Shown here piece by piece: positions 38,883 through 43,227 of a stretch of 43,227 nt of DNA. A program made the translations under genes and the position numbers. Positions within the stretch are counted from its first letter, which is position 1. Each line of letters starts with the position of its first letter. Source of the DNA: Vicinamibacteria bacterium. GTDB lineage: Bacteria; Acidobacteriota; Vicinamibacteria; Fen-336. The notes under the pieces are model-generated. The model made no database searches. It was not told the origin of the DNA and was given only the letters and a program-made list of their open reading frames with translations. The stretch is taken from contig JAICEW010000010.1 in the NCBI GenBank assembly GCA_025923995.1, forward strand, positions 1 to 43,227. The letters are read 5' to 3'.

Positions 38883-38969
38883 GCCGGAGTGGCGGAATTG
38901 GCAGACGCGCACGGTTCAGGGCCGTGTTGGCTTCGGCTAGTGTGGGTTCAAGTCCCACCTCCGGCACCA
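38883..38969 (+). tRNA. tRNA-Leu (anticodon CAG)
   Basis: A complete 87-base type II tRNA with encoded CCA. Acceptor stem GCCGGAG (38883-38889) pairs with CTCCGGC (38959-38965); discriminator A at 38966, then CCA. The anticodon stem CACGG/CCGTG encloses loop TTCAGGG with anticodon CAG at 38917-38919, which reads CUG, the commonest Leu codon in this DNA. A long variable arm and the T arm (GTGGG-TTCAAGT-CCCAC) follow. The 3' end abuts a large palindromic element. Confidence 0.97.
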
Positions 38970-39207: not shown

Positions 39208-41442
39208 ATGGGTATGCGGGATCAGGTCGTGGGATTGCTCCACGCGGAGCGGAAGCCCGTCTCCGTGCGGGAGCTGGTGAAGAGGCTGCGTCTCGAAGGG
39301 GACCAGCGCAGGGAGCTGAAGTCGGTATTGAGGAAGCTGATCGGTGACGGTGAGGTCGTGAACGTGCGGGGGGCCCGGGTGGGCCTTCCCGACCGGATGA
39401 ACCTGGTGGTGGGGCGGCTGTCGTGCAGCCCGTCCGGATACGGGTTCGTGACGCCGGAGCGGCGTGGGCTGTCGGACGTCTACGTCTCGGCCGTGAACAT
39501 GAAGGAGGCGCTGCAGGGCGACCGGGTGGTGGTGCGCGTGGAGCGCGTCTCGCCCAAGGGGCCCGAGGGTCGGGTCATCCGCGTGCTGGAGCGCGCGCTC
39601 ACGCGCCTGGTGGGCCGCTACGAGGAGGACGGACGTTTCGGCGGCCACGTGGTGCCGTTCGACAAGCGCGTGCTGCACCAGCTGTTCGTCCCGCCGGGCC
39701 AGGAGGGGGGAGCCGCGTCGGGGCAGATGGTGAGCGCCGAGATCACGCGCCCGCCGACGGCCACGCGCAACCCGACCGGCCGCGTGCTGGAGGTGCTGGG
39801 GCGCCTGGCGGACAAGGGCGTCGACCTCAAGGTCGTGATGGCCAAGCACGCGCTGCCGGACTCGTTCCCGCCCGAGGTGGAGGAGGAGGCGGCCCGCGTG
39901 CCCCGGTCCGTGCGCGACGAGGACCGCGCCGGCCGGACGGACTTCCGTCCCTGGCCGACCATCACGGTCGACCCCGAGACCGCGCGCGACCACGACGACG
40001 CGATCAGCCTCGACCGCCTGCCCAACGGGCACTGGCTGCTGGGCGTGCACATCGCGGACGTCGCGCACTACGTGCCGGAGGGCTCGCCGCTGGACCAGGA
40101 GGCGTACCTGCGCGGGACCTCGGTGTACTTCCCGGACCGCGTGGTGCCCATGCTGCCGCACGCGCTCAGCAGCGGCATCTGCAGCCTGGTCGAGAACCAG
40201 GATCGCCTGACGCAGTCGGTGGTGCTGGAGCTGGACGGCAAGGGGCGGGTGGTCAAGGCCGAGTTCCACGACGGGGTCATCCGCAGCGCCGCGCGCCTGT
40301 CGTACCAGCAGGCGCAGGCGATCGTGGACGGCGACCCGCAGGTGCGCGGGACGCACGCCTCGCTCGTGGGCCTGGTCGGGCGCATGGACGAGCTGGCGAA
40401 GCTGATGCGCAAGCAGCGCTACGTGCGCGGGTCGCTGGACTTCGACCAGCCGGAGCCGAAGCTCGTCCTCGACGAGTCGGGCGAGGTGGCCGGCATCGTG
40501 GCGCACGAGCGGCTGGACAGCATGCGCGTGATCGAGGAGTTCATGCTGGCCGCGAACGAGGCGGTCGCCGAGAAGCTGTCGAGCGCGGGGGTGGGCGCGC
40601 TCTTCCGCATCCACGAGCAGCCCGACCCCGAGAAGGTCGAGGAGTTCTGCGACCTGGTGGCCTCGCTCGGCTACCGCGTGCCGGCCCACCTGGAGCAGGT
40701 CCGCCAGGAGGACTTCCAGCGCATCCTGCGCCAGATCGAGGGCAAGCCGGAGCAGCGGCTGGTCTCCTACCTGCTGCTGCGCACCATGAAGCTGGCGCGC
40801 TACCACGAGGAGAACCTCGGGCACTTCGGCCTGGCCACCGAGATGTACGCCCACTTCACGAGCCCCATCCGCCGCTATCCGGACCTGGTGGTGCACCGCG
40901 CGCTGCGCGCCCTGCGCCAGGGGCTCCCTTCGGCGCTCTCGCAGGACCGGCTGGCGGAGATGGGACGCCACCTCTCCGAGCGCGAGCGGATCGCGTCGGA
41001 CGCCGAGCGCGAGCTGACCGAGTGGAAGAAGGTCCGCTACATGTCGGACAAGATCGGCGAGGTCTACCCGGGCTACGTGACCGGCGTACAGTCGTTCGGC
41101 CTGTTCGTCGAGCTGGACGGCGTCTACGTGCAGGGCCTCGTGCACGTCTCGTCCCTCGGAGACGACTACTACGCCTACGACGAGCGCGCGCACACGCTCA
41201 AGGGCGAGAACACCGGGCGCGCCTACCGCCTGGGCGACGCCGTGCGCGTGACGGTGGCGAAGGTGGATCTCGAGCAGAGGAAGGTCGACTTCGCGCTGGC
41301 GGACCTGCCCGAGCGCGCCGCGAGCGCACGGCTCCGGCCGCCCTCCGCGAGGCCGCGAGCCAGCGCGGGGCGCGCGCCCCGCGCGGGCACGCGGCAGGCG
41401 GCCCGCAAGCCGGAGCGCCGGCCGCAGGGGCGGCGAAGGTGA
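39208..41442 (+). CDS. rnr: Ribonuclease R
   Basis: A 744-residue 3'-to-5' exoribonuclease of the RNase II family, which degrades structured RNA and works in quality control. Order: N-terminal winged helix (about 1-60), two cold-shock domains ('S-G-Y-G-F-V-T-P' near 77-84), the RNB catalytic domain, an S1 domain near 620-700 ('G-Y-V-T-G-V-Q-S-F-G-L-F-V'), and a basic Arg/Ala/Pro tail. The magnesium-binding Asp residues lie in D255-P-E-T-A-R-D261-H-D263-D264. The 'H-F-T-S-P-I-R-R-Y-P-D-L' motif is near 550-561. The basic tail is typical of RNase R. ATG 39208 or 39214 could be used. It lies behind the palindrome that follows tRNA-Leu. Confidence 0.96.
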   Translation: MGMRDQVVGLLHAERKPVSVRELVKRLRLEGDQRRELKSVLRKLIGDGEVVNVRGARVGLPDRMNLVVGRLSCSPSGYGFVTPERRGLSDVYVSAVNMKEALQGDRVVVRVERVSPKGPEGRVIRVLERALTRLVGRYEEDGRFGGHVVPFDKRVLHQLFVPPGQEGGAASGQMVSAEITRPPTATRNPTGRVLEVLGRLADKGVDLKVVMAKHALPDSFPPEVEEEAARVPRSVRDEDRAGRTDFRPWPTITVDPETARDHDDAISLDRLPNGHWLLGVHIADVAHYVPEGSPLDQEAYLRGTSVYFPDRVVPMLPHALSSGICSLVENQDRLTQSVVLELDGKGRVVKAEFHDGVIRSAARLSYQQAQAIVDGDPQVRGTHASLVGLVGRMDELAKLMRKQRYVRGSLDFDQPEPKLVLDESGEVAGIVAHERLDSMRVIEEFMLAANEAVAEKLSSAGVGALFRIHEQPDPEKVEEFCDLVASLGYRVPAHLEQVRQEDFQRILRQIEGKPEQRLVSYLLLRTMKLARYHEENLGHFGLATEMYAHFTSPIRRYPDLVVHRALRALRQGLPSALSQDRLAEMGRHLSERERIASDAERELTEWKKVRYMSDKIGEVYPGYVTGVQSFGLFVELDGVYVQGLVHVSSLGDDYYAYDERAHTLKGENTGRAYRLGDAVRVTVAKVDLEQRKVDFALADLPERAASARLRPPSARPRASAGRAPRAGTRQAARKPERRPQGRRR

Positions 41443-41454
41443 TCGCGCCGATGC

Positions 41455-41483
41455 GCGACAAGGCGGGGCCGTTTCGCTAGAAT
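41455..41483 (+). promoter_or_regulatory. Promoter for the duplicated protein gene (and pgi)
   Basis: GCGACA (41455-41460), 17-base spacer, TAGAAT (41478-41483), four and five consensus bases. It lies in the 116-base gap after rnr and leaves a leader of about 70 bases with a good ribosome binding site. Confidence 0.45.
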
Positions 41484-41558
41484 TACGCCGGATTCCGACA
41501 ACCGGCTCCCGTTCCGCGGGTGCCCCGTAAGCCCCCACCCTGGAAGGGAGGTCCAACG

Positions 41559-41897
41559 ATGCCGCCGGAAGCACGCAGCGTTTCCCTCAATCTGTCCAGC
41601 CGCGAGCTGATCTTCCTGCAGAAGGTCACCCGGCAGGAGTACCACTTCATCACGGACGACGAGCAGGAGGCGCGCCTGCGGCTGCGCGACAAGCTGCTCG
41701 AAGGCTTCTTCGACCAGAACGAGAGCCGGATCGTGCTGAACCTGACGCGTGACGAGCTGCTGTTCCTGATCAAGGTCGCGCGCGAGAACTACTCGTTCAT
41801 CGTGCGGGCCGAGAAGGAGGCGCGGCTGGCCCTGGCCGCCAAGCTGCACAAGACGGCGGAGGCCGTGTTCGGCGTCAGCAGCAAGGTCGAAGACTGA
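41559..41897 (+). CDS. 112-residue protein made of two homologous ~41-residue repeats; unknown family
   Basis: ATG 41559 follows GGGAGG (41546-41551) at 7 bases. Residues 8-48 and 58-98 align without gaps at a period of exactly 50: both read L-N-L, then E-L, F-L, K-V, R, Y, F-I, E-x-E-A-R-L-x-L, K-L at identical positions (21 of 41 identical by my count). Each unit looks like a short strand (L-N-L) then two helices, as if the protein were a duplicated alpha/beta module. No signal peptide, membrane helix, cysteine or recognisable catalytic motif. It is acidic and basic in balance, probably cytoplasmic. The stop overlaps the probable pgi start (CTGA), suggesting co-translation with pgi. I recognise no known family. 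An in-frame ATG/GTG further up (41520) lacks a ribosome binding site. Confidence 0.88.
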   Translation: MPPEARSVSLNLSSRELIFLQKVTRQEYHFITDDEQEARLRLRDKLLEGFFDQNESRIVLNLTRDELLFLIKVARENYSFIVRAEKEARLALAAKLHKTAEAVFGVSSKVED

Positions 41898-43227
41898 CGA
41901 CATCCCGCGTCCGACTCGACCTGACCGGCTGCCTGCGCGAGACGATCGGCCGCGCGGGCCTGACCGCGCGAGAGCTGGCCCAGGGCACCCGCGCCGCCGT
42001 GGCCGGCGGCAAGCGCCTGCGCCGCGCCCTCGACGCCGGCCGCTACGGCTTCGACGCCATCCTGGACGACCGGCGGGCCCTGGAGGCCGCGCGGGCGGAG
42101 GGACGGCGCCTCTCGCGCCTGGCCGACACGCTGGTCGTGGACGGGATCGGCGGGTCCGCGCTGGGTGCCTTGGCGCTGGAGGCCGCGCTGCGTCCGAAGC
42201 GCAAGCGCCTGGTCATCCTGGACAACGTCGATCCCGAGGTGGTCTCGGCGCGGGTTCGGTCCCTGGACCCCACGCGCACCGCGGTCAACGTCGTCACCAA
42301 GTCCGGCGGCACCGCGGAGACCGCGGCCAACATGCTGATCCTCCTCGACTGGATGGAGAAGCGGCTGGGCGCGTCGTACGTGAAGCGCTGGTGCGCGACG
42401 ACGGACCCGGAGCAGGGCGAGCTGCTCAAGCTGGCCCGCCGGCTCGGCATGCCGACGCTGGCGGTCCCGCCCAACGTCGGCGGGCGGTTCTCGGTCCTGA
42501 CCGCGGTCGGCCTGCTGCCCGCCGTGTTCCTGGGCCTCGACGTCGACGCGCTGTTGAAGGGCGCGCGCGACATGCGCAAGCACTGCTGGACCGCGGCGCC
42601 CGAGCGCAACGCGGGGGTGATGGGCGCGGTCGTGCTCTACCTGATGGCACGCAAGCGCGCGCGCAACATCCAGGTGCTGATGCCGTACGCGGGCAGCCTG
42701 GTGGCGCTGGCCGACTGGTACAAGCAGCTGTGGGCGGAGAGCCTGGGCAAGCGCCTCGACCGTAAGGGGCGCGTGGTCGAGACCGGGCAGACGCCGGTGA
42801 CCGCGCTGGGCGCGACGGACCAGCACTCCCAGGTGCAGCTCTACATGGAGGGCCCGCACGACAAGGTCGTGACCTTCCTGGAGGTCGAGGAGTTCCGTCC
42901 CGACGTCCGCATCCCGCGCCTGCACGCCGACCTGGCCACGACAGGCTACCTGGGCGGGCGCACGCTGGGGGAGCTGCTCAACGCCGAGCGGCGTGGCACC
43001 GAGATCGCGCTCACGCAGTCGGGACGTCCATGCTTCGCGTACCTGCTGCCCCGCATCGACGCGCACGTCGTCGGCCAGCTCATCTACCTTTTCGAGTTCC
43101 AGACCGCGCTGTCGGGCGAGCTGTACGGCATCGACGCGTTCGACCAGCCGGGGGTCGAGGCGGGGAAGGTGGCCGCCTACGCGCTGATGGGCCGCGAGGG
43201 GTACGAGAAGGACGCGGCCCGGCTGCG
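41894..43227 (+). CDS. pgi: Glucose-6-phosphate isomerase, 3' end outside the window
   Basis: The frame is open to the last base; about 444 residues are visible. It interconverts glucose-6-phosphate and fructose-6-phosphate. Motifs: G-I-G-G-S-A-L-G near residue 86 (sugar phosphate), T-K-S-G-G-T-A-E-T near 134, G-G-R-F-S-V-L-T-A-V-G-L, catalytic W-A-E-S-L-G-K near 280, the His in G-A-T-D-Q-H-S-Q, and D-Q-P-G-V-E-A-G-K near the end. The family N terminus (V-R-L-D-L-T-G) starts at about 41909, yet there is no ATG, GTG or TTG in frame before it. The best candidate is CTG 41894, overlapping the upstream stop TGA as CTGA, with AAGG (41883-41886) upstream. GTG 41999 would drop about 35 residues. Confidence 0.93.
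   Translation, partial: MTTSRVRLDLTGCLRETIGRAGLTARELAQGTRAAVAGGKRLRRALDAGRYGFDAILDDRRALEAARAEGRRLSRLADTLVVDGIGGSALGALALEAALRPKRKRLVILDNVDPEVVSARVRSLDPTRTAVNVVTKSGGTAETAANMLILLDWMEKRLGASYVKRWCATTDPEQGELLKLARRLGMPTLAVPPNVGGRFSVLTAVGLLPAVFLGLDVDALLKGARDMRKHCWTAAPERNAGVMGAVVLYLMARKRARNIQVLMPYAGSLVALADWYKQLWAESLGKRLDRKGRVVETGQTPVTALGATDQHSQVQLYMEGPHDKVVTFLEVEEFRPDVRIPRLHADLATTGYLGGRTLGELLNAERRGTEIALTQSGRPCFAYLLPRIDAHVVGQLIYLFEFQTALSGELYGIDAFDQPGVEAGKVAAYALMGREGYEKDAARL

Follow-up and report, generated by a model that had tools for sequence, protein, structure and literature searches.

P0001, a 112-residue protein of the Vicinamibacteria, may be a lineage-specific housekeeping protein, single-copy in the family of the analyzed genome, in which a former homodimer has been fused into one chain to give a small pseudo-dimer that serves as a binding or adaptor protein in the cytoplasm. 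We give this reading a probability of about 0.4. The protein consists of two copies of a module of ∼45 residues, and comparison of the copies indicates that this module was most likely duplicated and fused once, before three families of the class split. In the genomes searched, P0001 is restricted to these three families of a single class of soil bacteria. The window, a stretch of 43,227 nucleotides, spans an entire contig from a draft genome of 6.8 Mb.

Gene, distribution and database searches

The two-repeat protein is encoded at 41559..41897 on the + strand, with an ATG at 41559 and a TGA at 41895-41897; the reading frame is kept in relatives and is under purifying selection. As an earlier note based on this DNA had proposed, the gene carries a strong ribosome-binding site, AAGGGAGGT (41544..41552, +, read from the sequence), 6 nt before the ATG, and purine-rich sites also precede most orthologues. 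The promoter-like TAGAAT (41478-41483) pointed out in the same note belongs to a GCGACA-17-TAGAAT element (41455..41483, +), the sole promoter-like match, with 0.0 expected. Among eight further orthologues from the same family, three (L046, L047 and L053) have the exact TAGAAT 5' of the gene, and three more have TAGACT or TAAACT there. Given this recurrence, the gene probably has a promoter of its own and would not be expressed chiefly as an add-on to rnr or pgi. Elsewhere in the window, a tRNA-Leu (cag) gene at 38883-38969 overlaps a spurious open reading frame.

Of the 14 genomes in the window's own family (f1), 12 have an orthologue, always in a single copy and 78-91% identical to P0001; the two genomes without one are both less than 70% complete (63-68%). 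A second family (f2) contributes orthologues from three genomes (about 50% identity), and a third (f10) contributes homologues from four genomes, with one or two paralogues each (about 37-40% identity). No match was found in the other families of Vicinamibacteria (193 genomes searched), and in a sample of 396 genomes from the phylum Acidobacteriota, 391 had none. A scan of one genome for each of 84,980 species, which uses exact peptide words and reaches close relatives only, matched only close relatives, those with names being Acidobacteria or Vicinamibacteria metagenome-assembled genomes. The dN/dS ratio of roughly 0.15-0.3 indicates purifying selection, and P0001 is somewhat more conserved than the neighboring RNase R. 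One f10 paralogue A sequence (L061, contig 47 of G040) stops resembling the family partway through repeat 2, beyond SFLTM, and may have been frameshifted or degraded.

Pfam, NCBIfam and PHROG scans of P0001 and all 17 family members gave nothing above the curated cut-offs in the window protein, nor did single-repeat queries against Pfam and PHROG. Combined with the lack of a match in the PDB, this agrees with the earlier statement that no described family fits. The candidates below threshold were RMMBL (Pfam; 16.9 against a cut-off of 21.6 bits), PipX (Pfam; 15 against 25), CsgA (Pfam) and Icd-like (NCBIfam); matches of other family members were weak as well. The best PDB match by sequence, actin, had an E-value of 0.46 and is attributed to chance. 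Searches by fold returned nothing below E 0.6 for the whole-protein model or below E 4.7 for the single-repeat model. Searches of phage, plasmid and viral-contig sequences yielded no P0001 relative, and tblastn against 50,697 phage records gave no match.

Internal duplication and predicted fold

The best internal match of P0001 pairs residues 8-46 (repeat 1, 41580..41696, +) with residues 58-96 (repeat 2, 41730..41846, +), both delimited by self-alignment and profile comparison. The match has a period of 50, is free of gaps and contains 21 identical residues out of 39. Its BLOSUM62 score of 92 lies far above every one of 5,000 composition-preserving shuffles (mean 22.0, SD 4.1, maximum 47), which confirms the duplication described in the earlier note. 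Since codon positions 1, 2 and 3 of the two copies agree at 23, 29 and 24 of 39, respectively, the duplication is old and not the product of recent DNA copying. At the level of families, the first and second repeats align with 98.8% probability over 42 gap-free columns (hhalign). In a tree of 32 repeats, which rests on few columns and is indicative, the second repeats of all lineages form one group (support 87/91) with the first repeats outside it. Every complete homologue carries both repeats. The clustering and the universal two-repeat architecture point to what was most likely a single fusion event that predates the split of the three families, in keeping with the ancestral duplication and fusion, and the repeat conservation among homologues, that the earlier note had put forward for checking. 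Single-repeat relatives were absent from the genome itself and from related genomes, the best match beyond the known copies having an E-value of 0.08. In f10 paralogue B, only repeat 2 still has the YxFIT loop; it has been lost from repeat 1.

An AlphaFold2 model built with 17 sequences has moderate confidence (pLDDT 78, pTM 0.67) and a β-αα-β-β-αα order, with strands at residues 8-12, 50-52 and 57-62 and helices at 14-24, 33-48, 64-75 and 83-104. Modeled alone, a single repeat yields two helices only and no strand, which is consistent with each strand pairing outside its own repeat.

TraY of the F plasmid is a monomer that contains a whole ribbon-helix-helix (RHH) dimer within one chain (PMC12117103), and this fused homodimer makes RHH the obvious fold candidate for P0001. 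The P0001 model runs through the order strand, helix, helix twice, and the alternation of the sequence suggests that each strand may have an outward-facing Asn. However, the hhalign score against 30 RHH_1 proteins from relatives, 10.2, lies within the range of the decoys (mean 8.5, maximum 13.0), no RHH family of Pfam matches, and the PDB fold matches listed for the moderate-confidence models, whole or single-repeat, include no RHH protein. In addition, the helices are separated by a loop that exceeds that of RHH proteins by several residues, and the strand residues are not conserved, some being acidic in paralogue B. The profile score and the fold search thus do not support a tandem RHH assignment (PF01402 / TraY-like), and P0001 was not filed as RHH; that it is a TraY-like tandem RHH DNA-binding protein acting as an autonomous repressor is unlikely.

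Gene neighborhood

The rnr gene (RNase R, 39208..41442, +; assigned from the Pfam RNB, CSD and S1 domains and from synteny) lies directly upstream of the P0001 gene in 8 of 12 f1 genomes and is confined to this family as a neighbor. Downstream, selB is found in 10 of the 12 (directly in nine, after one gene in G008) and pgi in the remaining two, the window genome and G003. The two genes alternate at the same site (in the window and at L053 of G003, pgi), and where the contig extends far enough, a PilZ gene comes after selB or pgi in most cases. In f2 and f10, neither rnr, selB nor pgi adjoins the gene: f2 has a pectinacetylesterase-type gene upstream and varying genes downstream, f10 paralogue A is flanked by apt and a transglutaminase-like gene, and f10 paralogue B by cytochrome c-like, TlpA-like, bactofilin and DnaB_C-domain genes. 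Because its neighbors change among families, the P0001 gene outlives every one of them, and the coupling to pgi is a local arrangement. Of the linkages that the earlier note wished to see surveyed, the one to rnr is the commoner but confined to f1, and the one to pgi is not conserved.

The order rnr, P0001 gene, selB, as frequent as it is in f1, raises the idea of a protein that assists selenocysteine insertion or RNase R. This is improbable: G003 keeps the P0001 gene with no detected match to SelA or SelB, the f2 genome G014 has both SelA and SelB but the P0001 gene is located elsewhere, and most sampled Acidobacteriota lack the gene. The window genome has SelA and no SelB match; its contig ends inside pgi, and selB may lie beyond.

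The window's pgi (phosphoglucose isomerase, 41894..43227, +; PF00342, E 3.5e-43) runs off the contig end and starts at either CTG 41894 or GTG 41999. Its frame contains no ATG, GTG or TTG before GTG 41999, and homology to the G003 pgi extends back to ∼41897; together, these imply a start at CTG 41894 that overlaps the TGA of the P0001 gene (C-TGA). The previously reported overlap of stop and start thus stands with the non-standard CTG and falls with GTG 41999, the first standard start. That P0001 is a translationally coupled partner or regulator of phosphoglucose isomerase is highly improbable. Its stop does adjoin the pgi frame here and the gene order recurs in G003, but selB takes the place of pgi in all other f1 genomes with the gene, nine of these ten keep it with no matching pgi anywhere, and pgi adjoins it in no f2 or f10 genome. 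The link to sugar-phosphate metabolism suggested earlier is accordingly not upheld, and it serves as a caution against reading function from the neighbors in one genome.

Proposed architecture and comparison with known systems

The P0001 module would be a strand-helix-helix unit whose N-terminal strand may pair with that of the other copy, the two being related by a pseudo-two-fold axis. Each half would be held together by conserved motifs, E-x-x-F-(L/I)-x-(K/R) in helix A and E-x-x-A-R-x-x-L in helix B, and the fused unit could stand in for a former homodimer. A fusion of this kind accounts for the repeat with no need of a two-fold symmetric partner. In its proposed binding or adaptor role, P0001 would more probably have a nucleic acid (RNA or DNA) than a metabolic enzyme as its partner. 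A nucleic-acid role, to which we give little better than one chance in three, is suggested by the basic tails of paralogue B and by the RNA-related f1 neighbors (rnr, usually selB). All four paralogue-B proteins of f10 (L058-L060 and L062) carry N-terminal Lys/Ala-rich tails of 24-74 residues, 39-47% of them Lys/Arg, which resemble histone-H1-like bacterial tails. Against such a role, P0001 itself is near neutral (net charge -1, pI 6.2) and has no basic tail, and the fold searches with the whole and single-repeat models recovered no known nucleic-acid-binding fold. The change of neighbors among families also counts against the fused pseudo-dimer reading as a whole.

A bolder reading has a slim chance of being right: the fused pseudo-dimer would represent a novel fold or superfamily and act in Vicinamibacteria as a lineage-specific factor, possibly essential, that is associated with RNA or DNA, and phages would carry single-module cousins of it. 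Three BFVD phage proteins (A0A8D9CDL5, A0A6J5NNQ6 and A0A6J5LR92) resemble the P0001 model, with Foldseek probabilities of 0.96-1.0 and TM-scores on the query of 0.65-0.69, at E-values of 0.0036 or worse and 11-13% identity; they have no known function. The profile phrog_7471, phage proteins of unassigned function, is weakly matched by residues 7-41 of P0001 (E 2e-5, profile positions 13-50). The match spans 38 of its 63 positions, and 8 of the 17 family members match at E <0.1. Unlike the two-repeat P0001, phrog_7471 has the length of a single repeat. A search of 40 related genomes did not detect it, and a control search there was also empty.

P0001 belongs to a hitherto undescribed protein family, strongly conserved, from a class of soil Acidobacteriota that has received little study. 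It is otherwise one among many conserved proteins without known function, and its family cleanly documents how a module was duplicated and fused into one chain long ago. The sole precedent found in literature searches is F-plasmid TraY. Unlike TraY, P0001 has no detectable profile similarity to RHH proteins and no RHH protein among its listed fold matches, its inter-helix loop is longer and its context is chromosomal. What the two would share, on the P0001 side according to the model, is a short chain in which two strand-helix-helix copies replace a homodimer (PMC12117103).
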